Position numbers and translations under genes: made by a program | In this document: positions 7,857 to 29,166 of the stretch, piece after piece | Layout: every line of letters begins with the position of its first letter | Numbering within the stretch: the stretch's first letter is position 1 | Notes under the pieces: generated by a model | Seen by the model: only the letters and a program-made list of their open reading frames with translations | Told to the model about the DNA's origin: nothing | The model's database searches: none | Virus record (IMG/VR): IMGVR_UViG_3300042868_007959 | Location: 1-64,000 of that record | Strand: one strand, 5' to 3' | From: a virus | DNA: 64,000 nt

Positions 7857-9017
7857 CTAAAAAGGCATTTTTTCTGATATCTCTAACGATAATTCTTTAA
7901 TATATTTTTTAAAAATAATTTCTGCCAATTCCTCATCCACACCAAAATTATTTACGACATAATCAATATCCATTGAACCCATCATCCATCCACTCTTCCA
8001 TCTATGTACATCCCAAGGTTTATAAGTGTATTCTTCCCAAGGATACATAGGAAACTTTACTGAGGCAATTTTTTCTGACATAGTACCCCCATAATTTTTA
8101 TCCAATATTTCGTATTCAGTATCTTCTAACATTGTTTTTACAATGTAATCGTAGAACTTTTGTTTTCTATCTACTGATTCTGTAACGTAACTTTTACCTT
8201 CACCATCTTCAAATCCTATTAATTGACCAGTTTTAGAATCGTATTCTTTTTCCACCCAATCCCCATAGGCATCTTCATAATACACCAACAATTCTTTACC
8301 AGTGTGGGGAATTTCTAACATTACTTGTACATATTGTGGTAGTGAAACCCCCCCAACTATAAAAGAGTCAGACATATGGATTGTTATACGCCACCCATAA
8401 ATCATTCTAAAAATATCACCCCATTCTTCTATAGGGATATTGAAATTATGGAAATCAACCATATAAGGTTTTTTCAATAAAGGAATTATTTTTTTATAGT
8501 ATGAATTTTTATCTTCTACTGATTCTGTAATATTTTTTTTCGATCTAATATCATATATTTCACCATCTGATTTTTCTCGATAAATCAATTCGTTATTGGA
8601 ATTAAATTCACTTACTATCCAAAAACCATTATTTTCGTAGTATATTTGATTTTCATTTTGATCGTACCTATATATAGATAGGTTTCCCATATCTAACTCC
8701 TCATGTTCAATTAAATTACCATAGTTATCATATACCTTCCTAAGATAATCTCCATTCGGGTATTCTTTATATGTAAGGTGATCATTATCCCAACGGTAAA
8801 GTTCCCAATACCCATCAGGTGTTTCATAATATAGTGGATTATTATCTTTTTTATCTAATACCTCATCCATACCAGTTATGTAAACAGGTTTATTAAAAAC
8901 AATAGATAATATTTGATCATGACTTTTTTTATCGTGAAACCCCATTTCCGATAAATCTTTAAAATACGGTTTTTGAATTATCTTTGCGACTTTATTATAT
9001 ATATTTTCTTTTTCCAT
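7857..9017 (-). CDS. Modular polyprotein with ITE/S and VTE/S linkers
   Basis: 386 residues in three parts. The first (about 1-160) has repeated YYETPDGYWELYRWDND-like and ENNGFWIVSEFNSN units resembling YD/RHS-type repeats. A linker NITESVEDK follows, then a second part. A second linker YVTESVDRK leads into one copy of the DDT module (DYIVKTMLEDTEYEI ... IDYVVNNFGVDEELAEIIF). Both linkers fit the prohead-protease rule. A TATTTAT box (9025-9031 complement) lies 7 bases before the ATG. No enzyme motif seen. Confidence 0.78.
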   Translation of the reverse strand: MEKENIYNKVAKIIQKPYFKDLSEMGFHDKKSHDQILSIVFNKPVYITGMDEVLDKKDNNPLYYETPDGYWELYRWDNDHLTYKEYPNGDYLRKVYDNYGNLIEHEELDMGNLSIYRYDQNENQIYYENNGFWIVSEFNSNNELIYREKSDGEIYDIRSKKNITESVEDKNSYYKKIIPLLKKPYMVDFHNFNIPIEEWGDIFRMIYGWRITIHMSDSFIVGGVSLPQYVQVMLEIPHTGKELLVYYEDAYGDWVEKEYDSKTGQLIGFEDGEGKSYVTESVDRKQKFYDYIVKTMLEDTEYEILDKNYGGTMSEKIASVKFPMYPWEEYTYKPWDVHRWKSGWMMGSMDIDYVVNNFGVDEELAEIIFKKYIKELSLEISEKMPF

Positions 9018-10475: not shown

Positions 10476-11084
10476 TTAATATCTTGTATTATTAGTGACA
10501 AAATCACCTAAGAATAATCTATAGTTATCCCATAATATTTTAAGATTTTTACCCTCAATATTAAACATATCGGAACAATAACTAACGAATTTTGGTGGTG
10601 GGGTTTCTAGGTTTAATAAATATAGGATATCTATATTCTCATTACTACTATATCTTAACGAAATACTATTGACAAAAAAAGGTACCTTTAATACTGAAGA
10701 GTTAACTTGATAGGTATCATCTTCAAGAATATTTAATATCTTATCTAAATACGTAACCATTCTATCATCCGATTCGTTAATAGTTTTTTTATTATAAACA
10801 ATATCTATTAAAAAATCTTTATATTTTTCCCATACATAATCGATTTGATTATCATCTTCTAACACATAATTATCATATAGATAATCTACTAATCCCAGTG
10901 GTATAGAATTATATCGTAAAATCCCTTTCATATTTGCTTCAGTAAATGCTCTATGGTTACTCCAAGGTAACTTAAAAAATAATAAGAATGTCGTATCGGC
11001 AAGAGATTGAGATTCTTGAAATTTCGTGTTGGTAATTAAATCATTAATGATATAATTTAAATATTTTTCTATTCTACTGTTCAT
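10476..11084 (-). CDS. Two-module DDT polyprotein
   Basis: 202 residues: two diverged copies of the DDT module. Copy one has YLNYIINDLITNT and IDYVWEKYKDFLIDIV. Linker TINESDDR. Copy two has YLDKILNILEDDTYQV and FNIEGKNLKILWDNYRL. The linker fits INE|S. Its start overlaps the next gene upstream by 11 bases, so both belong to one operon. No enzymatic motif. Confidence 0.75.
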   Translation of the reverse strand: MNSRIEKYLNYIINDLITNTKFQESQSLADTTFLLFFKLPWSNHRAFTEANMKGILRYNSIPLGLVDYLYDNYVLEDDNQIDYVWEKYKDFLIDIVYNKKTINESDDRMVTYLDKILNILEDDTYQVNSSVLKVPFFVNSISLRYSSNENIDILYLLNLETPPPKFVSYCSDMFNIEGKNLKILWDNYRLFLGDFVTNNTRY

Positions 11085-11754
11085 TTATAAAAATTTCTCC
11101 CATCTTATTCATTAATAAAACCGTTGATCCTAAACCAAAACTTGTTACTATCGAAGGATTTTTATTTGTGTACTCCCTAAATATTTCCAACATCTCTTTA
11201 AGGATATAGTCCATATATGTGTCACAAAATTTCTCAAATGACTCTACAGTACCATCATTTTCTAAGTATAGTCCATATGAATTTTTAAAATCATGTATTT
11301 TTACCACATACATATCACTTCTATCCTCGAATTGTTCATATGTCATACTTTCTAAAAGACTGTCAACAGTTTGATATATAATTTTAATTAATTTTTGTTT
11401 TAGATCCTCACTAAAACCGTCAAATTTTAAAAAATCTGATGGGTTACCCATCATCCATTGGTGATGTGAGGTAATATTTTCAGTAATAGTTTCTATATTA
11501 CCACCATATCTTCTATCTTTTAATTTTGAGACATATCTATCCCATACATATCTAACCTCTGATCGGGCAACCCCATAATTATCTTCAATATATTCCACAA
11601 ATAAAATGTAAGGTGTTCCTTGATTCTTTAAAAAATATTCCCAACCCACAACACCAAATGGTGAGATAAGTTTTAAAGGGAGATCACTAATTTTACTATC
11701 GTCTACTAAAAAATCAACAATTCTATTCAAATATTGTATGTTTCTAACACTCAT
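11074..11754 (-). CDS. DDT-module protein with unknown C-terminal domain
   Basis: 226 residues from the ATG at 11754, chosen because it begins MSVRNIQYLNRIVDFLVDD, directly with the module. One DDT module (FVEYIEDNYGVARSEVRYVW) is followed by ETITEN (ITE then N) and a ~125-residue helical C-terminal domain (SDFLKFDGFSEDLKQKLI, YMDYILKEMLEIFREY). A TATTTAT box lies about 10 bases upstream of the ATG. Confidence 0.72.
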   Translation of the reverse strand: MSVRNIQYLNRIVDFLVDDSKISDLPLKLISPFGVVGWEYFLKNQGTPYILFVEYIEDNYGVARSEVRYVWDRYVSKLKDRRYGGNIETITENITSHHQWMMGNPSDFLKFDGFSEDLKQKLIKIIYQTVDSLLESMTYEQFEDRSDMYVVKIHDFKNSYGLYLENDGTVESFEKFCDTYMDYILKEMLEIFREYTNKNPSIVTSFGLGSTVLLMNKMGEIFINEQ

Positions 11755-11816
11755 ATATGTTTTTAAATAAATATCGTATAAAAACAAAAATATAAATGTA
11801 GATACGAATAGATTTA

Positions 11817-12104: not shown

Positions 12105-13445
12105 TCAATGATATATAGGATCTCGTACACCCCATTCATTTATTAGTATTTGATTTATTTCATTAATATAATCTTCCCACACACTATATGATTCGTCTTT
12201 AGTTAATCCATAAGTGTCACTACAATAGTTAAAGAAATCCTCCCTATCGAAATGCATAATTCTACTATATACTAAATGAGTAAAAGGGACGAAGATATTT
12301 ATCCAATCCGATGGCCACATACGATGAGGTTCTATTTGTGTATCATTTACAATAAATTCTAAAACTTTATCTAAATAATTTTTTCTCCTATCATTAGATT
12401 CTTTTATTAACCTATCCCTTTTAGGAAATTTATCAAACATAATCTTACTATATTTTTCCCACACAACATCAAACTCTTCTGAAGTTGTACCATAATGTTT
12501 ATTACAGTAATCTGAAAATTCATTATAAAATACTTCATTCGGTGATAATAAGGACATAAATGAAGAATAAAAATTTATCGATGGGTATACTATCATTTGT
12601 AATTTAGGGACAATACTTGTATCACCAATTAAAGATTCTACAACCTTATCTAAAAATCTATTATTAGTTTCTACCGATTCATTAAGACTATTATCTTCCA
12701 TTTTATCCTCTAATTCTTTTTTTAATTTGGTGAATAATATTTTTATATACCTATTAAAAATTTCTAATATTAGAGATGTATCGGTTATTCCATACTGATT
12801 ACTTATGTAATTTACTTCTACATCATTTAATGGATAGTCTCCCATAAAATTTAAATGATAATCTGCCCCATTCCAATCCTCAGTATATATCTCACCATCA
12901 CCATAAAATGGATATACAATTCTCGCCACAGGTTCGTCTTTAATTGTTTTAATCTTATATTGAGTATCTTCTAACATAAAATTAACAATCTTATCTATAA
13001 CCATATTTTCTTTATCCCCTACAGATTCATTAAGACTATTTTCACTATAATCATCTGAATACCCTTCAGAGTTTTCATAATATATTGCCATACTCTTATC
13101 ATTATATTCGTATTTTTCCCAGTACCCATCACTCTCTTCATAATATATCATATTCCCCATTTCATCGTAATCTCTTAATGTCCACGGACCATTATCCCAC
13201 TCAACGTATAAAGGAAGTTTAGGTGGGTTAGTAGGGATATTAATAGATATAATTGTTGCCTCACTATTTATATTTCTATCTATTTCTAAAGAATTTTTAT
13301 CTTTATTAAAAAGTAATGAAAATACATCTAACCATTTATCGGTAGGTATTTTGAACATCCTTAAGTCCTCAATATAAGGGGGTTTCATAACACTTACTAC
13401 CTTTTGGGAGTAATTATCATCATTTATAGATTCATTAATTTTCAT
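12105..13445 (-). CDS. Four-part modular polyprotein
   Basis: 446 residues. It opens MKINESINDDN, with an INE|S site within the first five residues. The first part resembles the N-terminal YD-like part of the 7857-9017 protein (RDYDEMGNMIYYEESDGYWE). Three DDT modules follow, each after SLNESV, SLNESV and LIKESN linkers (KIVNFMLEDTQYKI; KVVESLIGDTSIV ... YGTTSEEFDVVWEKY; KVLEFIVNDTQIE ... YGLTKDESYSVWEDY). A TATTTAT box (complement of 13451-13457) ends 5 bases before the ATG. Confidence 0.8.
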   Translation of the reverse strand: MKINESINDDNYSQKVVSVMKPPYIEDLRMFKIPTDKWLDVFSLLFNKDKNSLEIDRNINSEATIISINIPTNPPKLPLYVEWDNGPWTLRDYDEMGNMIYYEESDGYWEKYEYNDKSMAIYYENSEGYSDDYSENSLNESVGDKENMVIDKIVNFMLEDTQYKIKTIKDEPVARIVYPFYGDGEIYTEDWNGADYHLNFMGDYPLNDVEVNYISNQYGITDTSLILEIFNRYIKILFTKLKKELEDKMEDNSLNESVETNNRFLDKVVESLIGDTSIVPKLQMIVYPSINFYSSFMSLLSPNEVFYNEFSDYCNKHYGTTSEEFDVVWEKYSKIMFDKFPKRDRLIKESNDRRKNYLDKVLEFIVNDTQIEPHRMWPSDWINIFVPFTHLVYSRIMHFDREDFFNYCSDTYGLTKDESYSVWEDYINEINQILINEWGVRDPIYH

Positions 13446-14561: not shown

Positions 14562-15014
14562 TTACCACCAACTGAACCCACCGAATTTAGTGGCATTAAA
14601 ACCAAATTTTTTATTCAATATAGATACTAATTCAGATTCCCATAATTTAGTCTTATTAAAATAATTGTTTAAAGTCTCCATCATCTCTTCACTAATAACA
14701 ATCATATCAAAATTAGTGTCCATAGCATATGTAATATCAGGTCTTTCGTAACAAGGTTCTGGTAGTTCATCGGAAAGTTCTTTAGGGTAATTACCATCCC
14801 CCCTATATCCTTTCCTCACAAGTTTAAAAATATAATCATCATGATTATCAGATTCAGGTAATACAAAACCAATTGCGTAAGGATCACAACAAATCCCCAT
14901 ACCACAGTTGTATTCCGCCCAATCCATCCATGAATCAGTTAAATTAGGGTATTCAATATCTAGTACTCTCTCTATAGTACTAATCATTTTACTTTCTGTT
15001 ATAATAATTTTCAT
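14562..15014 (-). CDS. Tagged hypothetical protein with Cys cluster
   Basis: 150 residues. Tag MKIIITESKMISTIERVL. The body has WAEYNCGMGICCDPYAIGF, a cluster of cysteines, and FDMIVISEEMMETLNNYF. ATGA overlap with the gene upstream. No family recognised; cargo role inferred from the tag and operon. Confidence 0.75.
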   Translation of the reverse strand: MKIIITESKMISTIERVLDIEYPNLTDSWMDWAEYNCGMGICCDPYAIGFVLPESDNHDDYIFKLVRKGYRGDGNYPKELSDELPEPCYERPDITYAMDTNFDMIVISEEMMETLNNYFNKTKLWESELVSILNKKFGFNATKFGGFSWW

Positions 15015-15337
15015 TTGTTAAAAATTTCAAGGTATAAATCTATTATGTATTGTCCATACCAATTCCAAATTTTATTTGATGTATCAAAATCCAATCCGTA
15101 ATGTCTATCCATAATCGTATAAAAACATTCAGGTACCAACTCAAAAAACGGATTATACCTTGAATGGTTTAAATGTATAGATATGTTACAATCAAATAAA
15201 TACCAATGGTATCCTTTTAGTTCTGTATTGGTTATTATGTCATTTATGACATAATCATTAAATCTTTTATTATCACTTATATTTACAGATTCATTAATAA
15301 GTCTTTTGAATTGATTTTCTGTTATAATAATCTTCAT
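15011..15337 (-). CDS. Tagged single DDT-module protein
   Basis: 108 residues from the ATG at 15337, which starts exactly with the tag MKIIITENQFKRLI then NES. After the INE|S site comes one diverged DDT module (FNDYVINDIITNTEL ... MDRHYGLDFDTSNKIWNWYG). This directly shows the tag and the module sharing the same type of cut site. ATGA overlaps at both ends. Confidence 0.78.
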   Translation of the reverse strand: MKIIITENQFKRLINESVNISDNKRFNDYVINDIITNTELKGYHWYLFDCNISIHLNHSRYNPFFELVPECFYTIMDRHYGLDFDTSNKIWNWYGQYIIDLYLEIFNK

Positions 15338-15651
15338 TTTAAAAATCCCCAATCTTGTATTTCATATAATTTTTGCATATATAGTTTCCAAACAATAAGA
15401 CACTCCTGTCCAGTAAGACCATAGGTGTCCTTACAATAATGATCAAAATAAATTAACTGAGAATCTAATCCACTATATACGGTGTTGTCTAATAAACCAA
15501 ATGTATGTTTAAAAACTGATCTAAATCCTGTTCTACCTGCAGTACTTCTACCATTACCTATATAATAAGGTGGATTAAACCAAGTATTACCTATTTCGGT
15601 ATCATCCACAAGGTACTCCACAATCTTATTTAAATATATCTCTTTATCCAT
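15334..15651 (-). CDS. Single DDT-module protein
   Basis: 105 residues that are one complete module: MDKEIYLNKIVEYLVDDTEI at the start and YCKDTYGLTGQECLIVWKLY near the end. It is the simplest version and defines the module length of about 100 residues. It has no N-terminal tag of its own. ATGA overlap with the gene downstream. Confidence 0.78.
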   Translation of the reverse strand: MDKEIYLNKIVEYLVDDTEIGNTWFNPPYYIGNGRSTAGRTGFRSVFKHTFGLLDNTVYSGLDSQLIYFDHYCKDTYGLTGQECLIVWKLYMQKLYEIQDWGFLK

Positions 15652-16952: not shown

Positions 16953-17435
16953 TTAGTTTATTTCACCATCTACCGATGATTCTTCTGTAGGGTACTCCTC
17001 AACAACCAAAGGAGTTTCTTCTTTAACTTGTGTATCTACAACAGTTGATCCTTGTGGTGGTCTTGGTGTTGTCGGATATTCCGCAACATTAGAAAAACTA
17101 TTTCCGTCTTCCTCATCAACTTTCTGAATTAACATCTTATCTCTGTCTTCAGAGTTGAACCAATAATCAACAACTTTATTAAGATTACCTACGAAGGCCC
17201 CGAATAAAATTAACAACATTTCTTTCCAGTTTTCTGCAATTTCAATTTGAAACATAACTGCCATATTAATACCAAAAATAATGAAGAAAAACAAGAATAA
17301 AATAATCCCTGTAATCTTCCATCTATTAGATTGCATTTGTTGCAACATATAATAGAAACGATTTTTATCCTCCACTTTAACATAAGGAGTTTCCCCGAAT
17401 AACATTTTTTTTAATCTACTTACCATTTTTTTCAT
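16953..17435 (-). CDS. Two-span membrane protein, holin candidate
   Basis: 160 residues with two hydrophobic segments (WKITGIILFLFFFIIFGINM and MLLILFGAFVGNLNKVVDYW), followed by FNSEDRDK and a Pro/Glu-rich cytoplasmic tail. The pattern of a second span ending in an aromatic residue and a small charged loop is common in phage holin-like proteins. It sits two genes away from the regulator genes and next to the endolysin. It could instead belong to the two-component cluster. Function not proven. Confidence 0.65.
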   Translation of the reverse strand: MKKMVSRLKKMLFGETPYVKVEDKNRFYYMLQQMQSNRWKITGIILFLFFFIIFGINMAVMFQIEIAENWKEMLLILFGAFVGNLNKVVDYWFNSEDRDKMLIQKVDEEDGNSFSNVAEYPTTPRPPQGSTVVDTQVKEETPLVVEEYPTEESSVDGEIN

Positions 17436-17443
17436 TTTTTTTA

Positions 17444-18124: not shown

Positions 18125-18558
18125 TTATATACTTTGAAAGGTAAGGTTCTATTTTTATAACCTTCATAATCTTTTCTGAACTCCTCTAAACGTGGCTCAA
18201 TGTCGTCAGATTTGATAATCCAAAACTGAGCTCCCGCTTGAACTGCCTTTGATTGTTCTTCTGGTTCGTTTGATGATGAAATAATTCCAACAACTACGTG
18301 ATTACCGTATTCAAAATTAATTTTTCTAATTAATTCTATACCATCAAAAGAACTACCAATGATGTTTAAATCAACAAACACACAATCAGGTTTATCATTA
18401 TCATCCCCACTTTTGAACCATTTTTCGAATTTTTTTGCCGCTTCGTCAGAACTATTTAACGCGTTTAAAGACAAACTTATGTCAAGTAACGAACAAGCGT
18501 CCTCAAATACTAAATGGAATAAATCCTCGTCATCCACCAATAAAATTGAATCAATCAT
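18121..18558 (-). CDS. Stand-alone response regulator receiver protein
   Basis: 145 residues, one receiver domain and no output domain. Key residues are present: D9, D10 acidic pocket (ILLVDDED), D63 phospho-acceptor (CVFVDLNI), S94 (GIISSSN) and K116 (WIIKSDD). A CheY-like single-domain regulator acts by binding a partner. The partner may be the coiled-coil membrane protein, whose ATG overlaps this stop. The histidine kinase gene lies 12 bases upstream. Very unusual in a phage. Confidence 0.88.
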   Translation of the reverse strand: MIDSILLVDDEDLFHLVFEDACSLLDISLSLNALNSSDEAAKKFEKWFKSGDDNDKPDCVFVDLNIIGSSFDGIELIRKINFEYGNHVVVGIISSSNEPEEQSKAVQAGAQFWIIKSDDIEPRLEEFRKDYEGYKNRTLPFKVYK

Positions 18559-18570
18559 TTTTTTCTTTTT

Positions 18571-20169
18571 TTATTTTATTTTTATTTTCATTTTAGTTCC
18601 TATTTCATTTTTCTCACAAGTAATTTTAAACTTGTGTTCTTCCAAAATTGCAACGCAAATATTTAATCCCAAACCAGTACCTGATTCCTTTTGTCCTTCT
18701 TTTCTTGTATATGGTTTACATAGGTAATCAAAATCTTCTTGTGTTAACCCCCTACCATTATCTTGAATGTAAACAGTATTCTCATCAGAATATATTTTAA
18801 CAAACTTAGTGTCAGAATCATTGTACTTTAAACCATTCCTGATTAAGTTGTCAACTGCAGTACAGAATAACGCTTCGTTTACTTCTATTGTTGGTAAGTC
18901 CTCAATAATTACTTGACTACTATATGCGGTTGATGATAGGTAATCAGATAGTATCACTTTTAAATCGCATTCCGCCTTATTTAAAACAACATCTTTTTTA
19001 ACAAGATTTGTAAACTCATATACCCCTTTATACACTTTTTGTGAATGTTTAAGACCTTCCTTAATCATTCTAATTGGTGCCTCTATTTTTAAATCGGTAA
19101 TGTCTTCGGGTTTTAATCTTCTTTCTAAAGAACTTAATCCTCTTGGCATATATGTATTGATACCTGAGTGCATATCGTGTCTTAATATTTTAGCGGCATG
19201 TTCTAAATAAGTGTTCTTTTTTTCAATCTCTTTCTTTTGTTCGTGAGTAGTGGTGACATCTGTTGCAATTTTCATAACACGATAAATCTTACCATCCATA
19301 CCAATGATTGGATTATAGGTTGCTTGAAGATGTATTAAGGAACCATCCTTTTTAACTCTAGTGATTTCACCAGTAAATAATATACCATCATTTAATTTTT
19401 CCCAAAAAAGAGAATATTCCTCACTTTTTGAGTGGTCCTCATCTATAAAAATCCTATGGTGTTTCCCAACCACTTCATCCAGTGATGAATATCCCATAGT
19501 ATTTAAAAACAATTCATTAGCGAAAATTATATTCCCCTTCAAATCAAACTCAATAACAGCGTTGGATTTATTTATCGCGTTCATTCTATTACGAATTTCC
19601 ACTTCTTTTTTCTTAAGATCTGTAACATCTTGTCTAATTGATGAGAATCCCTCCAACTTACCGTGTTTGTCAAATTTTGCCTTGATGTAGGTATCGACAT
19701 AATATAGTTCACCTGATTTTCCTTTGTTGGTAACAACATCATTCCATATCTCACCTTTCATTACTTTTTCATACATTTTACCCCAATATCCATCAGGTTG
19801 TAATCCTGAGTTTACAATAACATGATCCTTACCTTTAACCTCATCTAAAGACCAACCTGAAACATCCTCAAACTTTTTATTAACGTATGTAATTTTACCG
19901 TATTTATCGGCAACAGAAACGATGGTTGCAGAATCAATAAAATCTTCACTATCTTTTATTTGTTTTAATAAACCATCTTTTAACTCTACGGTTTGGGATT
20001 TCATTAAAAAATAAAATAATGGAGAAAATAATAAAAAGCAAGATATCTCAATAATTTTTGTTATATCAGTGGATCCAATAATCCCCGATAAAACAAAAAT
20101 TTTAGTTAAAAGAAAAGTAACCATCAAGATTACAGAAGGTATTATTAATAATTTACGTTTTTTAATCAT
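18571..20169 (-). CDS. Membrane PAS-PAS sensor histidine kinase
   Basis: 532 residues: two membrane spans (about 8-31 and 37-56), PAS domain 1 (about 75-185), PAS domain 2 (about 200-310, with DGKIYRVMKIATDVT), a dimerisation/phosphoacceptor region with H331 in ILRHDMHSGI, and a HATPase domain with N-box (DNLIRNGLKYND), G1 (IQDNGRGL, D470) and G2 (SGTGLGLNIC). All catalytic landmarks are intact, so it is probably active. It almost certainly phosphorylates the regulator encoded next. A TATTTAT box ends 4 bases before the ATG. The codon and base use look like the neighbours, so this is not an obvious recent insertion. Confidence 0.9.
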   Translation of the reverse strand: MIKKRKLLIIPSVILMVTFLLTKIFVLSGIIGSTDITKIIEISCFLLFSPLFYFLMKSQTVELKDGLLKQIKDSEDFIDSATIVSVADKYGKITYVNKKFEDVSGWSLDEVKGKDHVIVNSGLQPDGYWGKMYEKVMKGEIWNDVVTNKGKSGELYYVDTYIKAKFDKHGKLEGFSSIRQDVTDLKKKEVEIRNRMNAINKSNAVIEFDLKGNIIFANELFLNTMGYSSLDEVVGKHHRIFIDEDHSKSEEYSLFWEKLNDGILFTGEITRVKKDGSLIHLQATYNPIIGMDGKIYRVMKIATDVTTTHEQKKEIEKKNTYLEHAAKILRHDMHSGINTYMPRGLSSLERRLKPEDITDLKIEAPIRMIKEGLKHSQKVYKGVYEFTNLVKKDVVLNKAECDLKVILSDYLSSTAYSSQVIIEDLPTIEVNEALFCTAVDNLIRNGLKYNDSDTKFVKIYSDENTVYIQDNGRGLTQEDFDYLCKPYTRKEGQKESGTGLGLNICVAILEEHKFKITCEKNEIGTKMKIKIK

Positions 20170-20245
20170 ACAAATAAATATAGAAAAAATATTAAAAACT
20201 ATTTACTTTAATTAATTTTTTCATATTTATAAAAAAATTAAAATT

Positions 20246-20842
20246 ATGAACTATACAAAAGAACAGGTTGAGGCTGCCGTAAAAGCCAAAGGTTATGTTT
20301 GGTTTGAGGACGCAAACAATAAAGGGTATGATGTAAACATTGTCGGTATTAGAAATTCAAGTACTGGACAAAAAGTGACTAACGTATTTGACGATTACAT
20401 AACATTATCTTACAAAGTTGATGGACAATGGAAATTCCATATTTGGCCAGCAACTACTGATCCAGGTACTAAAGGTGTTATGCAATTTGGTAACAAGGCA
20501 GGTGTCGCAAGATTAGTAGAGGGACAATACAGAGGGTCACATACAATGAGACTTCATGCTGGGAAATATGAAGCATTGGGTCAAAACAAACCAGTTAAAG
20601 TTTTCAGAGATCCTAATAAGAATATGGAATATGATGAAAATAAAATTCAAGAAGGTGTATTTGGAATTAATATACACAAAGCAGGTGCCGACTCAACTTA
20701 TGTTGAAAATTGGTCAGAAGGTTGTCAAGTGTTTAAAAAGTCAAAGGACTTTGAAGAATTTATGTCTATCTGTAGGAAAGCAAAAGGGGTACACGGTAAT
20801 TCATTTACCTATACACTAATCGAAACTAACGACATTAAATAA
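20246..20842 (+). CDS. YkuD-like L,D-transpeptidase-like protein
   Basis: 198 residues. The motif GINIHKAG...ENWSEGCQVF carries the His and the Ser-x-Gly-Cys of the YkuD L,D-transpeptidase catalytic site, preceded by long conserved beta stretches (NIVGIRNSSTGQKVTNVFDD, WKFHIWPATTDPGTKGVM, GQYRGSHTMRLHAGKYEALG). Many phages of Gram-negative hosts carry this protein, usually unannotated. It may cut or remodel peptidoglycan, for example in lysis or entry. A TATTTAT box (20224-20230) lies 15 bases before the ATG; a terminator follows. Divergent from the kinase gene. Confidence 0.78.
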   Translation: MNYTKEQVEAAVKAKGYVWFEDANNKGYDVNIVGIRNSSTGQKVTNVFDDYITLSYKVDGQWKFHIWPATTDPGTKGVMQFGNKAGVARLVEGQYRGSHTMRLHAGKYEALGQNKPVKVFRDPNKNMEYDENKIQEGVFGINIHKAGADSTYVENWSEGCQVFKKSKDFEEFMSICRKAKGVHGNSFTYTLIETNDIK

Positions 20843-20863
20843 ATCTACCAACATTAAATAATA

Positions 20864-20888
20864 AAAGGTTCTTAGGGACCTTTTTTTT
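20864..20888 (+). terminator. Rho-independent terminator
   Basis: AAAGGT pairs with ACCTTT around CTTAGGG-like loop, followed by a run of eight T (20881-20888). It lies 22 bases after the stop of the YkuD-like gene. Confidence 0.75.
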
Positions 20889-21013
20889 ATGATCCAAATA
20901 AAAAATCTCATCAAGAGGGGTTGGGGTGATTGAACAGTTCGGTCGTACAACTGATTAAATAGAAGATATCATATTACGAAAAATATTTTATTATACCAAA
21001 GTATTTATTTAAT

Positions 21014-21397
21014 ATGAAAAGAACCATTAAAAGAATATTAAAGGAAGAACTAACCGAAACAGAATATATGGGCGGAATTATTCCCTCACATTTTTTAGAG
21101 GAACTGGGAATTAAATTATTTAAAGAAGAAGATGTTGCCAGTCTTACAGAAATACAATTCGATACAAAACGTGTTGTAATAGATCTTTTTACTCTTGACG
21201 GAGACGAAGGATATGGTAGTTATGAAGATGCGATGAGTATACCTGATGGTTTTCAATACCAATACGGTTTTAACATTAATGATTTACCTGTAAGTTTTAT
21301 AAAGTACTTAATAAAAGAACTGAATGATAACTATGGTACCAATTATTTGTACCCATTTTTAGATATAATACCAAAAGGTATGTTTAAGAACCTTTAA
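21014..21397 (+). CDS. Tagged hypothetical protein
   Basis: 127 residues. Tag MKRTIKRILKEELTETEY (ILKE then E). Acidic alpha/beta body with no recognised domain (VVIDLFTLDGDEGYGSYED). It is a plus-strand member of the tag family. A TATTTAT box (21002-21008) ends 5 bases before the ATG. Its 3' end overlaps the end of the giant polyprotein gene by 14 bases on the other strand. Confidence 0.75.
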   Translation: MKRTIKRILKEELTETEYMGGIIPSHFLEELGIKLFKEEDVASLTEIQFDTKRVVIDLFTLDGDEGYGSYEDAMSIPDGFQYQYGFNINDLPVSFIKYLIKELNDNYGTNYLYPFLDIIPKGMFKNL

Positions 21398-23642
21398 TAT
21401 AAGAATCAAATTTATCTATAATGATATTTTTATATGTATCCCATACATATTTAATATCGTCATCAGTCAAACCATACATATCTTTAGTATAATTAGAAAA
21501 AGAAGCGGGATAATTAATACGAAAAAGTAAATTATAACTTAAAGAAGATAGACGGTAAAAAGGTGCGAAGAATATATCGTCATTAATCGAAACTTTAGTA
21601 TCAGCCACAAGAAATTCCACAATTTTATTTAGATATTCATCTTTTCTATCTACAGATTCATTAATTCTATCACCATTCTTTTTTAATAACATTTCTTCAT
21701 ATATAATAGTAGATAATTTTTGTATGTATCTATCATATAACTCTTGTACAGTATCTATATCACATATACTATAAGTGTTACAAATATAATCTATATCTTC
21801 TCCTTCATCTAAATTAAAACCACTACCATTTGACCAATCATAAATATCATATATACTATAATCATATGCATCCTCATCCACATCCTCATCAGGATTAGTA
21901 AAAGGGTACCATATTTCTACTTTAGTTTCTGAATGATCACTAAACCTATTAATGTAAATATTATATTCGGTATCGTCTATCATAAAATCTACAATCTTAT
22001 TTAGATAATCAGATTTTCTATCTACAGATTCATTTATATTATTACCTTTAACCCTTAACATATCATCGTATATTTTAGTGAATAATTTCTCAGTGTATTT
22101 TTTAAATATATCTTCTATGGTTTTTACACTACGTATATTGTACACATCCCACATATATTCAATCTCCACTCTATTAAGGATATATTCACTCGATTCCTTA
22201 ATAGTAGATACCTCATATATAGTATAAGGGAATCCAGAGTCTTGTGCAGAATAAGGATACCTTATATAGACAAAAATTTCTGTAGAATCGACATTATATT
22301 GGGAAATACTAAGTTCATATTCGGTATCGTCTACCATATAATCAGAAATCTTATCTATTAGATCATCCTTTCTATCCACTGATTCATTAATGGGGACTTT
22401 AAATATATTAAGGATATTTTTTTTATATTTACTCCACACCCCTTTTACTTCTGAATTAGTTAACCCATAACTATCTTTACAATAGTTAAAAAAGTTTCTT
22501 TTCAACATATCATCAGATATTTTTTTTAAGTAGACTGTAGAAAACCATATAGATGCAAACGATGGTTTAAAAATTCCAAAATCTCCTTCTCCCATAGATA
22601 TTTCCGTGTCATCTACAAGAAATCCCACAATCTTATCTAAATAATCAGATTTTCTATCCACAGATTCGTTAATGGTAGGTACACCATTAATGATAGAAAA
22701 CCCATTAATTTTAGGGGTTAAAACTTTAAGATATCTTTTCCATAATTTTCTTATTTCCTCATCATCTGTCAATCCATACGTGTCTTTACAATAGTTAAAA
22801 AAGTTTCTTACATAAGAATTACCAATAAGATATTTTAATTCTAAATGATCTGTCATAGGTATTAGACCATAGAAATGATTAAAAGTAGGTTTAGCGTGAC
22901 CAGTAGGATAAGGTGGATACCACACTTTATTCTTTTGATCCACCATAGTGTCATCCACAAGGTAATCTATAATTTTATCCATATATTCACCTTTAGAAAT
23001 TTTATCCACAGATTCATTAATATTATCCTTACCAAATACAATATCCCTCATAACATCCTTATATGTTTCCCATACATAAACAATACCCTCTTCTGAAGTA
23101 ATTCCAAACGACTCATCAATGTATTCCATAAAACCGTCTATAGGGATATATGTCTCAAAAAGAAGTCTGTGAAAAGGTGTGAAATTATTACTACCTTGTC
23201 TAAGTGATCTCTTATATGTAAAAGGAAAAAATATCATCCTATTTTCATAGTCTACTTTAGTATCATCTACAAGAAATCCCACAACCTTATCTAAATATCT
23301 TTTTTTATTATCCACAGATTCATTAATGGGTTTAAGATCATACATAATAGATTCTTTATTATATCTATCCTTAATAATGGTTTTATAGTTGTCCCATATA
23401 TATTTTGTCTCATCGTAATTTAAACCATATGTATCCCTACAAGTTATCTGAACATCTGAAGGCATACCCCACGAAAGTTTATTTTTTAAATCATCGATAA
23501 AACTAGGTAAAGGTTTACCATTCGGACCTATCGGAGAAAAAGGATATATTATAACACCCGTTTCATATCTAATTATAGTATCATCAACAAACCACTTAAG
23601 AATCTTATCTAAATATATTTTTTTATTATCTTCCATATCCAT
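21384..23642 (-). CDS. Seven-module DDT polyprotein
   Basis: 752 residues made of seven copies of the DDT module. Each starts with a form of YLDKIV.FLVDDT and most end with YCKDTYGLT..E...VW..Y. Six linkers read INESVD: KPINES (cut after E108), DNINES, PTINES, VPINES, NNINES, DRINES. Modules five and six are a second subtype (DDTEYELS, DDTEYNIY, followed by beta stretches and a late YMWD/YICN motif). There is no N-terminal tag other than the module itself. If cut at each INE|S the product would be seven proteins of about 90-125 residues. Function of the module unknown. Confidence 0.88.
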   Translation of the reverse strand: MDMEDNKKIYLDKILKWFVDDTIIRYETGVIIYPFSPIGPNGKPLPSFIDDLKNKLSWGMPSDVQITCRDTYGLNYDETKYIWDNYKTIIKDRYNKESIMYDLKPINESVDNKKRYLDKVVGFLVDDTKVDYENRMIFFPFTYKRSLRQGSNNFTPFHRLLFETYIPIDGFMEYIDESFGITSEEGIVYVWETYKDVMRDIVFGKDNINESVDKISKGEYMDKIIDYLVDDTMVDQKNKVWYPPYPTGHAKPTFNHFYGLIPMTDHLELKYLIGNSYVRNFFNYCKDTYGLTDDEEIRKLWKRYLKVLTPKINGFSIINGVPTINESVDRKSDYLDKIVGFLVDDTEISMGEGDFGIFKPSFASIWFSTVYLKKISDDMLKRNFFNYCKDSYGLTNSEVKGVWSKYKKNILNIFKVPINESVDRKDDLIDKISDYMVDDTEYELSISQYNVDSTEIFVYIRYPYSAQDSGFPYTIYEVSTIKESSEYILNRVEIEYMWDVYNIRSVKTIEDIFKKYTEKLFTKIYDDMLRVKGNNINESVDRKSDYLNKIVDFMIDDTEYNIYINRFSDHSETKVEIWYPFTNPDEDVDEDAYDYSIYDIYDWSNGSGFNLDEGEDIDYICNTYSICDIDTVQELYDRYIQKLSTIIYEEMLLKKNGDRINESVDRKDEYLNKIVEFLVADTKVSINDDIFFAPFYRLSSLSYNLLFRINYPASFSNYTKDMYGLTDDDIKYVWDTYKNIIIDKFDSYIKGS

Positions 23643-23765
23643 ATTATAAATACCTTAATATTTGGAAACGTAAATTTTTCTGGAAAATTTTTAACCCTAT
23701 ATACCGTTCACCAGAAATGGGTGTTCATTGTCACTGAACAAACCTATGTATTGAACAATAAAAAA

Positions 23766-23790
23766 ACCCCACTCTTATTAGGAATGGGGT
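23766..23790 (-). terminator. Rho-independent terminator
   Basis: ACCCC...GGGGT hairpin around ACTCTTATTAGGAAT with an A-run on its left side (U-run for minus transcripts). It follows the tagged 100-residue gene at 23814. Confidence 0.65.
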
Positions 23791-23813
23791 AATATATTAT
23801 AAGGTTTTTATTT

Positions 23814-24116
23814 TTACCATTTTTCTCCTTCGTCATCTTTATTTCTAAGATCTTCTAATAAATCCATAAAGATTACACTCTCATCTATATAATGTAATTG
23901 ATATCTAAATTCCTCCATTATCTTTTCTGCGGCATCATAAATTTCATTTTCATACCATCCTGGATCAATATCTTGATGAGATAATTCACTTTCTATGGAC
24001 GAAACAATATCTTCGATGGAAATTGAATTACCCATTGACATATCTTGTGATTCTTTTACGGTTTTTTTAACTATTCTAGTTAAATCGTTCTCTGTTAATC
24101 TTACTATCTTTTTCAT
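23814..24116 (-). CDS. Short tagged acidic protein
   Basis: 100 residues. The clearest form of the longer tag: MKKIVRLTENDLTRIVKKTV then KES. The rest is acidic and helical (DIVSSIESELSHQDIDPGWY, AAEKIMEEFRYQLHYIDESV). A TATTTAT-type box lies in the spacer before the ATG. It has its own terminator. Function unknown. Confidence 0.78.
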   Translation of the reverse strand: MKKIVRLTENDLTRIVKKTVKESQDMSMGNSISIEDIVSSIESELSHQDIDPGWYENEIYDAAEKIMEEFRYQLHYIDESVIFMDLLEDLRNKDDEGEKW

Positions 24117-24233
24117 ATTATAATTTTTTTATTATATAAATATACTATAATTCTCAAAATTAAAAATTTACTTGAAAAATTTTTGGGTAGTTGGGGAAGA
24201 ATGAAAATGGGGTCGACATTTGGAGAGATGAAA

Positions 24234-24252
24234 TAAAAAAAGGTTCGAACCT
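24234..24252 (-). terminator. Terminator of the candidate ncRNA
   Basis: Self-complementary AGGTTCGAACCT (24241-24252) followed on the minus strand by a T-run. Confidence 0.6.
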
Positions 24253-24451
24253 AAACTTAAAAATTTCCTGGAAAATTCATGGACAATATCGCCTCCCCTA
24301 CCACAACCAAAACATACCCAGAGGGAAGGGGGGATACGATGGGGGGTGTCTGGGGGACCCTCCCTCTTACTCTATAGGAGGGGGGTTTATTGTGTCTCTT
24401 ATCAAAGACCCCCTCCCCATTAGGATTATATGTATATATCTATCTCATTTC
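24234..24451 (-). ncRNA. Candidate structured non-coding RNA with own promoter and terminator
   Basis: A host-type promoter at 24458-24489 points left into a stretch with no convincing gene and unusually high G+C. On the minus strand GGAGGGGGT pairs with ACCCCCCTCC, AGAGGGAGGG with CCTTCCCTCT, and the transcript ends in AGGTTCGAACCT followed by seven T (24235-24252). A transcript of roughly 215 bases results. A plus-strand open frame across it (93 codons) has none of the composition of the neighbouring proteins and no promoter. The GGTTCGAACC end resembles a tRNA T-loop, but no tRNA fold can be drawn. Confidence 0.6.
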
Positions 24452-24457
24452 ATACTA

Positions 24458-24489
24458 CAAATATACGAATAATATATTAGAAAATCAAA
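24458..24489 (-). promoter_or_regulatory. Host-type promoter, TTTG-N20-TATATTTG
   Basis: Minus strand TTTG (24489-24486) and TATATTTG (24465-24458) with exactly 20 bases between them. No start codon of a real gene follows, so it points to an RNA gene. Confidence 0.72.
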
Positions 24490-24760
24490 TTATAGGGCAT
24501 AAAAAAAGGAGATAGTTTCATATTCTGTTGTAATTAATACTTACTGAATAATCTTTCTATCTCCTTCTATCGTCTCTACTCAGTCTATGAACTCTGAGGA
24601 GACTTTACGTGTTAACCTTCCGTTCATGTATAAGAAGAACTTGTCATTCTCTACACTATCTTCTCCATAAGGGTGGGGAGGAGAAGAGGAAAGGATCCCA
24701 CATAACTAAATCAAACAACTATGATACAATATTAAGTATATTATTTTAAAAAGTCAATAG
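24490..24760 (-). other. Gene-free stretch with paired segments and a short open-frame remnant
   Basis: No complete gene. On the minus strand GGAGATAG (plus-strand complement near 24540-24566) pairs with CTATCTCC near 24507-24514, followed by a T-run, so it may hold a second RNA or a long-loop terminator for the 24761 gene. A frame reading SVENDKFFLYMNGRLTRK then VSSEFID and a stop looks protein-like but lacks a good start, so a gene remnant is possible. Confidence 0.35.
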
Positions 24761-25786
24761 TTATCTATTATAATTTATCATTTCTTCATATATAATAGGA
24801 CGTAGTTTATTTATATATCTATTATATAGTTCTTGTGTGATCCATCTTTGAGTTATACCAAATTGTTCTTCTAAATAATCTCTATCAGTTTCATTCAGAA
24901 AGAACTGTTCCCAGTCTACTTCCATTTCATCCATTTGAAATTCATCAGAGTCACCACTAGGGAAAGTTATCTCCACTCTTACATGTCGTTCTAAGTCATC
25001 TTCACCTAATTCTTCCATAAAGATATCCCATGTGGTGTCTTGTACCATAAAGTCTACTATTCTATTAAGTGTATCCTCTTTTCTTTCTACAGATTCATTC
25101 ATAGGGTTTTTAGATGATCCTAATAGTTCTTTTACTTTATCATATAATAAAGAATAATACCTTTGAGATATATTAGTAATAAGATTCCAATCTTTTATAC
25201 TATATGTATCATTAACATAATTAACAAAATTCAAATCATAACCTCTCCTTAATAATAATGGTAATACTTTATCAATACTGTATGAGTTAAATCCTTCAGA
25301 AGGGTAAACTATTACCACTCTATCTCTATGAAAATAGTATTCAGTATCATCTAACATATACTGTGAGATCTTATCTACTAATAGATCTTCCTTATTCTCT
25401 TTAGATTCATTCATTGGTTTACGTTCATAATTATCAAAGTCGTTTAATATGTTTGTAAATAAGATTGTATAATACTTTAAATATATTTTTTCTAGAATGG
25501 TTTCATCTTTTATACTATAGTTGTCATCCATATAGTTATAATCATATAAATTAAAAAAGATTACATCCACCCCTTTCTCTTTAAAATCATTTAGATGAGA
25601 TCTAATTTCACTCTCATTTAAATATATTAGATAATTATACATTGGATATTTTACCTCACATATTATCTCACCCATAAACCTATGGTAGACTTCATATGTA
25701 GTATCACCCAGTAGACTCTCTACAACTCTATCTACTAATAGATCCTCTCTATTCTCTTTAACAATACCTTTAATGGTTACCTTCAT
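24761..25786 (-). CDS. Three-module DDT polyprotein
   Basis: 341 residues. It starts MKVTIKGIVKENREDLLVDR, where the tag-like start (VKE|N) flows directly into module one (VVESLLGDTTYEV). Two linkers PMNESK and PMNESV precede modules two (KISQYMLDDTEYYF) and three (RIVDFMVQDTTWDI). All three belong to the second subtype with beta stretches such as VEITFPSGDSDEF and a late YL/YVNDTYSI. The linkers use Met at the third position before the cut (MNE|S). A TATTTAT box lies before the ATG. Confidence 0.82.
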   Translation of the reverse strand: MKVTIKGIVKENREDLLVDRVVESLLGDTTYEVYHRFMGEIICEVKYPMYNYLIYLNESEIRSHLNDFKEKGVDVIFFNLYDYNYMDDNYSIKDETILEKIYLKYYTILFTNILNDFDNYERKPMNESKENKEDLLVDKISQYMLDDTEYYFHRDRVVIVYPSEGFNSYSIDKVLPLLLRRGYDLNFVNYVNDTYSIKDWNLITNISQRYYSLLYDKVKELLGSSKNPMNESVERKEDTLNRIVDFMVQDTTWDIFMEELGEDDLERHVRVEITFPSGDSDEFQMDEMEVDWEQFFLNETDRDYLEEQFGITQRWITQELYNRYINKLRPIIYEEMINYNR

Positions 25787-26046
25787 TTTCTTTAATAATA
25801 TATTAATAAATATTAGGATATGTCAGAAATGATCCGTAACTTTATATTGTCAGTGGTTCATAACCGAGACGGGTCAGAGAAACAAGTTCTTCTCTAAGAG
25901 GGTGGACTCCGACCTGTCTTATATATTTATAATTAGTTCACCTATGATCAACCGACCTCTGATCTCTTCATACTATATATCTATATGTACGCCTGTTTCG
26001 GTATTACCACCAACATAACAAAGGTAGTAATAATAATCGACATATC
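25787..26046. other. Gene-free spacer with hairpins
   Basis: About 260 bases without a gene. On the plus strand GACGGGTC pairs with GACCTGTC and encloses AGAGAA...TTCTCT (about 25867-25917); further right GGTATTACCACC faces GGTAGTAATAAT. These could be an RNA element or terminator of the 26047-27120 gene on the minus strand. The right part holds the promoter region of the 25786 gene. Confidence 0.35.
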
Positions 26047-27120
26047 CTAAAATAATCCACTATTTTTTATATAATGATGCCACACATATTGTATTTCTTC
26101 TATATGTAACCCATACATATTTTCACAATATATAGAAAACGCCCTGAAGGAATGTACTGGAAGATGTTGTTGTTTGTTAGGAGTAAGTAGGAGTATATTA
26201 CTAAAGTATGGATATTTAATTTCTCTCTCTTCATAATCTATAATAGTATCATCTATTATATACTGTACAATTTTATCTAAGTATATTTTTTTACTGTCTA
26301 CAGATTCATTCATTGGTTTGGAATTTATCTTATGATTAAATATAACTTTATATTGATCCCATACATATACTGATTCCTCATATGTTAATCCATATGTATC
26401 ATTACAATATTCAGAGAACGCATTAAATAATGGAGATTCAATTGTTGCGTAATATAATGGTGTTGATAAACCCCATTGGGAATTAATATAAGGAAGAAAA
26501 GGATATGTTACTAACTTTTGTTCATAGTCTAGTTCTGTATCATCGATTATATACTGTGATATATTGTCTAGATATTTTTCTTTTCTCTCTACAGATTCAT
26601 TAATAGATCCTTTATCGTCAACAATAGATTTATATTTTTCCCACACATATATAATTTCTTCACCTGTCAATCCATATATATCTTTACAATATTTAAGAAA
26701 AGAATAGTAGTAAGGAGAAGGTATTATAAAGGGTGGAATAATAGGAATGGGATTATATAGATATGGTAGTTTACATAGATTCTTATTGTAATCTATCTCT
26801 GTATCATCTATTATATACTGTACAATCTTATCTAGATATATTTCTTTATTGTCTACGGATTCATTGATAGATCCAGGAAGTTTAATCTTTCTATTAATTT
26901 GAAATAAAAGATTACCATAGACATATAAACAATCATCACTGTTTAAACCATAGTCAAACTCTAATATATCCCATACCGTACTGAAGAATCCATTTGAAAG
27001 AAACTCTACATCATAGGTTCTATTAGATCCATCTAATATCTCTACTGTAGAATGAAGATAATTTATTTTAATATCCTCTAACAAATACTCCACTATCTTA
27101 TTTAAATGTGTTTTATCCAT
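26047..27120 (-). CDS. Four-module DDT polyprotein
   Basis: 357 residues: four modules of the first subtype. MDKTHLNKIVEYLLEDIKI opens module one. Linkers SINESVDNK, SINESVERK and MNESVDSK precede copies with YLDKIVQYIIDDTEID, YLDNISQYIIDDTELD and YLDKIVQYIIDDTIID, each ending in a YGLT/YGLH...E..YVW motif. Copies two to four are much more alike at their starts than the copies in other genes, so they look like recent duplications. A TATTTAT box lies within 10 bases of the ATG. Confidence 0.85.
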   Translation of the reverse strand: MDKTHLNKIVEYLLEDIKINYLHSTVEILDGSNRTYDVEFLSNGFFSTVWDILEFDYGLNSDDCLYVYGNLLFQINRKIKLPGSINESVDNKEIYLDKIVQYIIDDTEIDYNKNLCKLPYLYNPIPIIPPFIIPSPYYYSFLKYCKDIYGLTGEEIIYVWEKYKSIVDDKGSINESVERKEKYLDNISQYIIDDTELDYEQKLVTYPFLPYINSQWGLSTPLYYATIESPLFNAFSEYCNDTYGLTYEESVYVWDQYKVIFNHKINSKPMNESVDSKKIYLDKIVQYIIDDTIIDYEEREIKYPYFSNILLLTPNKQQHLPVHSFRAFSIYCENMYGLHIEEIQYVWHHYIKNSGLF

Positions 27121-27632: not shown

Positions 27633-27639
27633 TTATATT
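27590..27639. repeat. Direct repeat at the 3' end of the HNH gene
   Basis: ATTAGGTTGTAGACTTATAT occurs at 27590 and again at 27619 (21 identical bases each, 29-base period). The second copy contains the stop codon of the HNH endonuclease gene. This could be a duplication scar of homing-gene insertion. Confidence 0.75.
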
Positions 27640-28373
27640 ATTTTATCTCTTTTAACATACCTATTAATATATGAACATAGTGGTTGTATATTACTATGGT
27701 GATTTAGTTTTATAATATCTTCTTCACACTTACCTGATGATAATGGAATTATATGATCCAAATCCCATCCATAGTTTTTAGTTTTATGATCACATAAACC
27801 ATAGTTATTCCAGTTCATCCATTCTTCCCATTGTGATTCCATATATAATTTAAATTCTTCGTATGTGCAACCTAATATCTTATATGTTTTAGATTTTTTT
27901 GTATACCCATTTTTTTTTAGGGTTACATTAATTCTATTACGAATTGAGTTAGTCAGTTTATATATAGTATTTTGATTATATCTTTGTCTACGATACCCTT
28001 GTAACCTTTCTTTATGTTTTTCCCTATATTCTTTATTTTTTATAGATAGTATTTCTTTATTTTTTTCAGTATATATTTTGTCATATTCTTTTTTCTTATC
28101 TTTAATAATTTCTTTATTTTTTTCTAAATATAACTTCCTCTTTTCTTTGTAATTTTTACTATAATATAGTTTAGAATATTCATTTGTTTTTAATCTATTT
28201 TTTTCTTTATTTTTTTCTCTATATTCTTTTTTATGGAGATATAATCTTTCTTTATTTTTTTCACTATAAAGTTTTTGGTATTCCTTTAAACATAACTTAC
28301 ATTTAGTTCTACCTTTAGGAAATTCAGTTAATTCTTTTTCTTCCTTACATTTGGTACATACTTTCTTTTCCAT
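27633..28373 (-). CDS. HNH endonuclease with N-terminal zinc finger and KEYR-type repeats
   Basis: 246 residues. The N-terminus has KVCTKCKEEKELTEF and CKLCLKEYQ, a Cys4 finger common in phage HNH proteins. The middle is a Lys/Glu/Asn/Tyr-rich repeat of the type KEYREKNKE, probably a DNA-contacting helix array. The C-terminus has the HNH core: WDLDHIIPLSSG, LNHHSNIQPLC, YINRYVKRDKII. Probably a free-standing homing endonuclease. The repeat at its 3' end and its neighbour, another homing endonuclease, mark this as a mobile-DNA hot spot. Confidence 0.85.
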   Translation of the reverse strand: MEKKVCTKCKEEKELTEFPKGRTKCKLCLKEYQKLYSEKNKERLYLHKKEYREKNKEKNRLKTNEYSKLYYSKNYKEKRKLYLEKNKEIIKDKKKEYDKIYTEKNKEILSIKNKEYREKHKERLQGYRRQRYNQNTIYKLTNSIRNRINVTLKKNGYTKKSKTYKILGCTYEEFKLYMESQWEEWMNWNNYGLCDHKTKNYGWDLDHIIPLSSGKCEEDIIKLNHHSNIQPLCSYINRYVKRDKII

Positions 28374-28403
28374 ATAAAAATGTCAAAAACGTTTGATAAC
28401 CCT

Positions 28404-29117
28404 TTATATTATTTCCTTTCTATTTTTACCTCTTTGTTTACCATCGTGTCTGTATCTTTGATGTCTACTTTTTATATCTACCCTCCAACAGAAACCTCCC
28501 GCAGTCATACGTTCACCTTTATCAACCTTACAAATATTACCTGTCGTAGTGTTATTTTCTTTTGCCGCATCACTTATTGATTCATATGTCTTTATTATAT
28601 TGCCAAAGATATCCAACTTATGAACCCTTACAATTCTATTTTTATTTACATTTATAATGGTTTTTTCCTTTTTTAATACCTCATACCTGTGATGTTGATT
28701 ATATGTATTATCACACCATTCCAAATTTCCTACCCTATTATCATCTGTTATACCATTAATATGATTAATTTGTGGTAAATTATTGGGATTCGGTATAAAT
28801 GATTTGGCAACCTCTCTGTGTACCAATACTGATAATCTTTTTACTTTCGATGTTGTACACATATCATCATTGTAACTTAGATGAATCGATACATAGTTCT
28901 TTTTATTTAATGTACCAACAAGAATACCTTCATCAATTTTAATTAATGTTTGTTTGTATGGTTTACTAGTTTTTTTACTTATTCTGTTGGATACGGTATA
29001 CCCCTCCAAACGTTTAACCCTACCCATGTTTGATACGTAAAAGGTGTTCTCATGACCCACCATCGGTTTCCATACTTCACCTTCAATATTCTTTAAATCT
29101 TTATTTCTGTGTACCAT
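28404..29117 (-). CDS. HNH homing endonuclease with NUMOD4 and NUMOD1-like domains
   Basis: 237 residues from the ATG at 29117, chosen because a host promoter lies immediately upstream. NUMOD4-like start (GEVWKPMVGHENTFYVSNMG, RVKRLEGY), HNH core (LVHREVAKSFIPNPNNLPQI, NHINGITDDNRVGNLEWCDN) and a C-terminal NUMOD1-like segment (VHKLDIFGNIIKTYESISDA, FCWRV). This is the classic SPO1/I-TevIII-like free-standing arrangement. It ends in basic residues. Confidence 0.88.
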   Translation of the reverse strand: MVHRNKDLKNIEGEVWKPMVGHENTFYVSNMGRVKRLEGYTVSNRISKKTSKPYKQTLIKIDEGILVGTLNKKNYVSIHLSYNDDMCTTSKVKRLSVLVHREVAKSFIPNPNNLPQINHINGITDDNRVGNLEWCDNTYNQHHRYEVLKKEKTIINVNKNRIVRVHKLDIFGNIIKTYESISDAAKENNTTTGNICKVDKGERMTAGGFCWRVDIKSRHQRYRHDGKQRGKNRKEII

Positions 29118-29135
29118 AATAAAACTATTATACCA

Positions 29136-29166
29136 CAAATATAATAAAATAATTCATATAAACAAA
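29136..29166 (-). promoter_or_regulatory. Host-type promoter, TTTG-N19-TATATTTG
   Basis: Minus strand TTTG (29166-29163) and TATATTTG (29143-29136), 19 bases apart, about 18 bases before the ATG at 29117. Confidence 0.65.

Follow-up and report, generated by a model that had tools for sequence, protein, structure and literature searches.

A standard strategy among eukaryotic viruses is the polyprotein, in which one open reading frame (ORF) holds several folded products separated by sites for a virus protease. Among phages, the T4 internal proteins IPI, IPII, IPIII and Alt combine a capsid-targeting sequence with cleavage by gp21 (PMC9026906, PMC12373910), whose published cut site is L/I-x-E (PMC9026906), and three T4 internal proteins inhibit different type IV restriction enzymes (PMC12373910). 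The inner-body and ejection proteins of phiKZ and SPN3US have cut propeptides (PMC10052503, PMC5694885), and the SPN3US protease favours Ser at P1′ (PMC10052503). The polyvalent proteins of phages and plasmids, including P1 DarB/DdrB, are long and multidomain, are proposed to be packed into the head and injected, and are in some cases processed (PMC5512222, PMC9024508). The subject here is a set of genes for repeated protein modules in the uncultured virus record IMGVR_UViG_3300042868_007959 (253,879 bases), found in the stretch analysed (the window, 64,000 nt, record positions 1 to 64,000). These genes quite probably encode head-targeted polyproteins, cut in the prohead by a gp21-type protease into single-domain proteins that are most likely injected as early effectors. 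The open-licence literature searched yielded no description of a phage ORF whose product is split by the prohead protease into several folded proteins.

Modules, linkers and the predicted sites of the head protease

Searched with a module profile, the whole record gave 24 places, the weakest of which (13026-13424, 32.7 bits) was lost when the profile was retrained on relatives and was set aside as a different domain type (KPPYxxDL), also present in 7857-9017. This leaves 23 clear modules of ~90-125 amino acids (aa), here called DDT modules, in nine genes, all at 7,857-27,120 (Table 1). The sequence-only reading had counted about 23 modules in the window, with 7, 3 and 4 copies in three neighbouring genes and linkers reading INES, LNES, MNES or ITES; the open ORFs and the profile matches bear out both the counts and the linkers. 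The sequences at the junctions are INE↓S, LNE↓S, MNE↓S, ITE↓S, VTE↓S and IKE↓S, the arrow marking the bond predicted to be cut. When window and relatives are pooled into 51 distinct junctions between adjacent modules (some orthologous between close relatives, and thus non-independent), P1 is Glu in all 51 and P1′ is Ser in 48, Asn in 2 and Gly in 1, and [ILMVFY]xE with Ser (Gly in one case) after it describes 48 of the 51. This cut motif is ~15 times denser at junctions (48 in 1,440 residues) than in module cores (18 in 7,982 residues), and of the 30 [ILMV]NES strings in the called proteome, for which the expected number is 7.6, module genes hold 17. In a two-module model (mean predicted local distance difference test, pLDDT, 74; predicted template modelling score, pTM, 0.53), residues 90-95, which comprise the linker and its Glu-Ser bond, have pLDDT <50 and lie between folded domains.

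A head protease of (L/I)xE type, which the sequence-only reading requires, is encoded at record 252079-252768 as a Peptidase_S77, gp21-type head maturation protease (PF03420, 82.1 bits, E 4.4e-24; phrog_207, E 1.7e-39). Its gene is followed by that of a scaffold-like acidic protein and then by that of a gp23-type capsid protein, and the T4 gene order, 21-22-23, is the same. All three proteins carry sites of the linker type. In the capsid protein, ALLNE↓STSAD (residues 58-61) immediately precedes the conserved SGSFETVVFPIVRRVF, at the position of T4 E65↓A66; (L/I)(N/T/S/C)E↓(S/A/T) stands at that place in 79 of 79 capsid relatives with a complete N-terminus, and IVSE↓A is the reading in the capsid protein of Flavobacterium phage immuto, an isolate. 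Near its C-terminus the scaffold contains PMNE↓SVENK and NLNE↓STAY, and such sites occur in the last 80 residues of all 75 scaffold relatives, often as [IM]NES[VI]E.K, like the module linkers. The protease has QMSE↓SK close to its own C-terminus (a similar site is found in 42 of 59 relatives), which recalls the C-terminal self-processing of the SPN3US and T4 proteases (PMC10052503, PMC9026906). A profile of 17 window linkers was also run on all other proteins of the genome, with no target chosen beforehand and with 20 shuffled proteomes as control; its top match outside the module genes was the scaffold's MNESVENK (22.7 bits, against a shuffled best of 18.1). At the sequence level, the linker motif is thus that of the predicted cut sites in the same phage's capsid, scaffold and protease proteins. 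The third-best match, within the range of the shuffled proteomes, was STINE↓STIRK in a 192-aa structural-region protein outside the window (record 224591-225169), a candidate prohead core protein.

The scaffold's MNE↓SVENK site also bears on the alternative that survives best, namely that the strings are parts of the prohead core or scaffold (compare T4 gp67/gp68 and gp22), chopped up to clear the head and not carried as cargo. Large strings without a targeting leader, like T4 core proteins, and modules as acidic as scaffolds would agree with such a role; however, the predicted sites are concentrated between folded domains instead of being spread through them, single-module genes with leaders exist, and 23 diverged copies, changing copy number and patchy occurrence (modules in 9 of 32 related contigs searched, many of them partial) are unlike an essential assembly part. 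This alternative is therefore considered improbable, although it deserves the most weight among the rivals.

Slightly less credit is due to the idea that the proteins remain uncut and multidomain, INES being the conserved edge of a tandemly duplicated unit. Tandem paralogues do share linkers by descent, but the linker Asn, Glu and Ser columns have some of the lowest entropies in the alignment (0.61, 0.70 and 0.30 bits) while the modules have diverged to pairwise identities of mostly 20-40%, and the linker Glu does not vary across 49 aligned module pairs whose mean column identity is 26%. Linker codons vary at constant residue (TCT, TCA, TCG and TCC for Ser; ATT, ATA and ATC for Ile), which also argues against simple descent, as does the match of the motif to the capsid, scaffold and protease sites. 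Finally, the motif joins unrelated domains and aligns with the leader ends of their stand-alone versions. Thus, the MISTIERV domain stands behind MKIIITE↓SK in 14562-15014 and after a DDT module and NPINE↓SENK in relative L099, and the PYxxD domain comes after NITE↓S in 7857 and stands alone behind MKVTIKGIIKE↓S in L126. As far as sequences can tell, linkers and leaders are interchangeable, the same sites joining unrelated domains.

Mixed polyproteins of 762, 1,039 and 1,435 residues are found in relatives (L123:13717-16005, L121:6174-9293 and L120:4890-9197), with non-DDT segments also separated by x-E↓S. Pfam gave no significant domain on these larger proteins, and a C-terminal stretch in L121 and L123 that looks ADP-ribosyltransferase-like by eye is not claimed, since it lacks Pfam support.

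Leaders and upstream boxes

About 40 of the 333 called ORFs start with short peptides such as MKIIITENQFKRLINES, MKNTIKKILKEE, MKKVTLTEKDLYRIVRETLNEES or MKFKKLITES, which resemble T4 capsid-targeting sequences in their position and x-E ending. Among 182 proteins of >140 residues, the leader patterns match 28 N-termini and one mid-protein window, a comparison that is descriptive and no independent test, the patterns having been drawn up after the sequences were seen. Leader-like peptides precede modules in 15011, in 24761 and in two genes of relative L013 (leaders MKNVIKKILKEE and MKRIIREILKEE). The same set, ending in x-E, is found on otherwise unrelated proteins (e.g. window 3469-5195, 15659-15982, 38957-39786, 52665-58766 and 63077-64000); among the leader-bearing proteins, two have peptidoglycan-binding domains, and a similar start is seen on one M23 peptidase outside the window. 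Such leaders may mark virion proteins that are packaged in the head or cleaved.

A ATATTTAT/TATTTATA box lies no more than 60 bases upstream of 25 of 61 structural-region genes, compared with 7 of 75 in the non-structural stretch at 66-135 kb (p = 3e-5). Of the nine module genes, five have it upstream (7857, 12105, 21384, 24761 and 26047) and four do not; three of those four (10476, 15011 and 15334) overlap or directly follow an upstream gene. Genome-wide, the ATATTTAT box stands upstream of 60 of 250 ORFs of at least 90 aa, and within 50 bases of the start codon it is found at 53 ORFs and its reverse complement at 13. The T4 late promoter TATAAATA was also considered and is not specific in this genome, ATATTTAT performing better. 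This pattern fits late expression together with the virion genes and, from the motif counts, makes ATATTTAT a candidate late promoter.

That the modules are intracellular accessory or defence proteins that never enter the head, as the many stand-alone modules starting directly at M-D/E-K..YLDKI without a leader might suggest, is the least likely explanation, since it leaves the protease-site linkers unaccounted for and sits poorly with the leader-bearing versions (15011, 24761, L013) and with an upstream box that matches that of virion genes.

Module fold and turnover among relatives

A structure prediction for one module, proposed with the sequence-only reading, returned a single confident fold (AlphaFold2, 112-sequence alignment; pLDDT 86.9, pTM 0.80), small and alpha/beta, with a helix, a beta hairpin, a short helix and two long helices. 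Foldseek comparison of this model with the PDB and with viral models (BFVD) gave no significant structural match, and Pfam and PHROGs gave no real match on the window polyproteins; the best match of a PDB sequence search (E 0.047, the heat shock protein SSE1) was judged to be due to chance. Conserved parts are the first helix with its ‘DT’, a Pro after the hairpin and the segment ‘YC.D.YGLT..E...W..Y’, and the sequence and length of the middle third are hypervariable. The second subtype, with longer beta strands and a longer last helix, was first read as keeping only the first motif; instead, one profile covers both subtypes and their secondary-structure elements follow the same order, so that it is best seen as a divergent form of the same module. 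If the polyprotein explanation is true, the modules form a new family with a fold matching nothing known, likely of early effectors.

Comparison with relatives reveals turnover in the strings. The counterpart of the window's 7-module string has 8 modules in L013, and the two genes differ unevenly from module to module, with zero differences in module 5 and proportions of synonymous differences (pS) of 0.16 in module 2 and 0.20 in module 7. For 26047, where L013 has a module replaced, one module is missing and a different one stands elsewhere in the string, the neighbours being ~99% identical. Gene 12105 opens with MKINES where relative L124 has an extra module ending in INES, which fits the loss of an upstream module kept in L124, and the stand-alone module of 15334 has its counterpart in the last module of the L126/L094 polyprotein (61-64% identical). 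The proportion of nonsynonymous differences is below pS for most modules and in most pairs compared. Judged by these alignments, the modules are under purifying selection and are gained, lost and replaced among near-identical neighbours, with the linkers kept.

Two HNH-endonuclease-like ORFs (by eye; window 27633-29138, minus strand) adjoin the polyprotein genes, and L013 has a similar longer ORF at 871-2325; it is possible that they aid module turnover. At window 18121-20169 (minus strand), a PAS-PAS histidine-kinase-like protein (Pfam PAS, HATPase_c) stands beside a response-regulator-like ORF, and both are kept in L013.

Table 1. Module genes of the window, a gene for a stand-alone ‘MISTIERV’ domain, and predicted head-protease cut sites (window coordinates; ↓, bond predicted to be cut).
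Feature	Position	Strand	Basis or remark
Polyprotein gene, 752 aa, 7 DDT modules	21384..23642	-	ORF; 7 profile matches, whole-protein E 3.8e-157 (window-built model)
Polyprotein gene, 341 aa, 3 modules of longer subtype, leader MKVTIKGIVKE	24761..25786	-	ORF and profile; leader like other capsid-targeting-like N-termini of the genome
Polyprotein gene, 357 aa, 4 modules	26047..27120	-	ORF and profile
Mixed polyprotein gene, 446 aa: KPPYxxDL-type domain, then 3 DDT modules; N-terminus MKINES	12105..13445	-	Profile
Mixed polyprotein gene, 386 aa: two PYxxD-type domains and one DDT module, joints ITE↓S, VTE↓S	7857..9017	-	Profile
Two-module protein, 202 aa, junction TINE↓S	10476..11084	-	Profile
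One DDT module, then second region	11074..11787	-	Profile
Single DDT module behind capsid-targeting-like leader MKIIITENQFKRLINE↓SV; leader start is an internal ATG	15011..15352	-	ORF and profile
Stand-alone DDT module without leader	15334..15651	-	Profile
Stand-alone ‘MISTIERV’ domain, leader MKIIITE↓SK	14562..15014	-	ORF and comparison with relatives
Predicted cut site 1 of 21384-23642, INE↓SVDNK (Glu-Ser codons)	23316..23321	-	
Predicted cut site 2 of 21384-23642, INE↓SVDKI	23010..23015	-	
Predicted cut site 3 of 21384-23642, INE↓SVDRK	22662..22667	-	
Predicted cut site 4 of 21384-23642, INE↓SVDRK	22380..22385	-	In the pLDDT <50 segment of the two-module model
Predicted cut site 5 of 21384-23642, INE↓SVDRK	22026..22031	-	
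Predicted cut site 6 of 21384-23642, INE↓SVDRK	21654..21659	-	
Predicted cut site 1 of 26047-27120, INE↓SVDNK	26857..26862	-	
Predicted cut site 2 of 26047-27120, INE↓SVERK	26593..26598	-	
Predicted cut site 3 of 26047-27120, MNE↓SVDSK	26302..26307	-	
Predicted cut site of 24761-25786, MNE↓SKENK	25403..25408	-	
Predicted cut site of 24761-25786, MNE↓SVERK	25091..25096	-	
Predicted cut site of 12105-13445, LNE↓SVGDK	13023..13028	-	
Predicted cut site of 12105-13445, LNE↓SVETN	12675..12680	-	
Predicted cut site of 12105-13445, IKE↓SNDRR	12396..12401	-	
Predicted cut site of 10476-11084, INE↓SDDRM	10770..10775	-	
Predicted cut site of 7857-9017, ITE↓SVEDK	8520..8525	-	
Predicted cut site of 7857-9017, VTE↓SVDRK	8175..8180	-	
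Predicted leader cut site of 15011-15352, INE↓SVNIS	15287..15292	-	

Proposed pathway and comparison with known systems

That the strings enter the head and are cut there into single-domain products, as the sequence-only reading held, is supported by the protease gene, the match of the sites, the low model confidence at the linker and the joining of unrelated domains. From the modules, linkers, protease gene, matching cut sites and domain shuffling, we infer packaging, cleavage, injection and an effector role. In the pathway envisaged, strings of independently folding domains, mostly DDT modules, would be made late in infection alongside other head proteins and would enter the prohead core. 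The activated S77 protease would then cut after Glu at each hydrophobic-x-Glu↓Ser linker, a sequence the same as in capsid and scaffold maturation, and the freed single domains would remain in the full head and exit with the DNA. Once injected, they would act like T4 internal proteins, as diverse, rapidly reshuffled early effectors, for example as inhibitors of host defence. The variety of the modules, their hypervariable middle, patchy occurrence and turnover resemble T4 internal proteins and prompt this anti-defence role, which by analogy is a first guess that we rate a little short of an even chance.

Several observations weigh against this pathway. The isoelectric point is below 7 in 22 of the 23 modules and their mean net charge is -6, so that they are acidic, unlike the basic T4 internal proteins. 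In a tblastn search of 50,697 phage records no module was found, and no isolate phage record has one. TNE↓S, ITE↓N and INE↓N, seen at a few junctions of relatives, depart from the pattern. The module cores contain the cut motif too, from which it follows that the motif alone is insufficient and that what is special is its place. Lastly, the strings 21384 and 26047 and the stand-alone 15334 have no recognisable targeting leader; upstream of the two strings, where missing leaders were sought, there are just a few further open in-frame codons. Given these leaderless genes, head entry is the weakest-supported step. Since T4 gp22, gp67 and gp68 are components of the core (PMC9026906), entry of the strings through affinity for the core is possible, by analogy.

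A broader proposal, for which the chances seem balanced, is that heads in a lineage of giant T4-related phages are loaded with polyproteins from which the capsid-maturation protease releases dozens of different single-domain effectors, the string being an evolvable cassette array with modules gained, lost and swapped between fixed protease sites. If true, such an array would let the phage alter its injected arsenal with targeting and regulation unchanged, and the polyprotein would be a natural way for a phage to pack many proteins into its head in equal amounts. In addition, [ILMVF]xE↓S between domains would provide a simple sequence rule for finding the injected proteins of uncultured giant phages.

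With the T4 internal proteins, the module proteins share a hydrophobic-x-Glu site for a gp21-type protease, short leaders on some members, and diversity as small proteins within a variable accessory set, whose turnover suits an arms race. T4 internal proteins, however, are basic, with one mature domain and a single leader, whereas here an ORF holds as many as 7 domains (8 in a relative), most of them acidic, and no leader precedes the longest strings. As in phiKZ and SPN3US, the phage is giant and many of its head proteins would be matured by a gp21-related protease cutting after x-x-Glu; in those phages, cutting removes a propeptide or trims the protease C-terminus and leaves one mature domain, whereas many domains are predicted here. 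In polyvalent proteins (Iyer et al. 2017), enzyme domains of disparate known activities are combined, and self-processing by built-in peptidase domains has been proposed; by contrast, the strings described here are mostly copies of one unknown fold, have no significant Pfam domain and carry sites that match those of the phage's capsid protease. Eukaryotic-virus polyproteins are unrelated: here the virus is a tailed phage whose protease comes from a separate part of the genome and is normally active inside the prohead.

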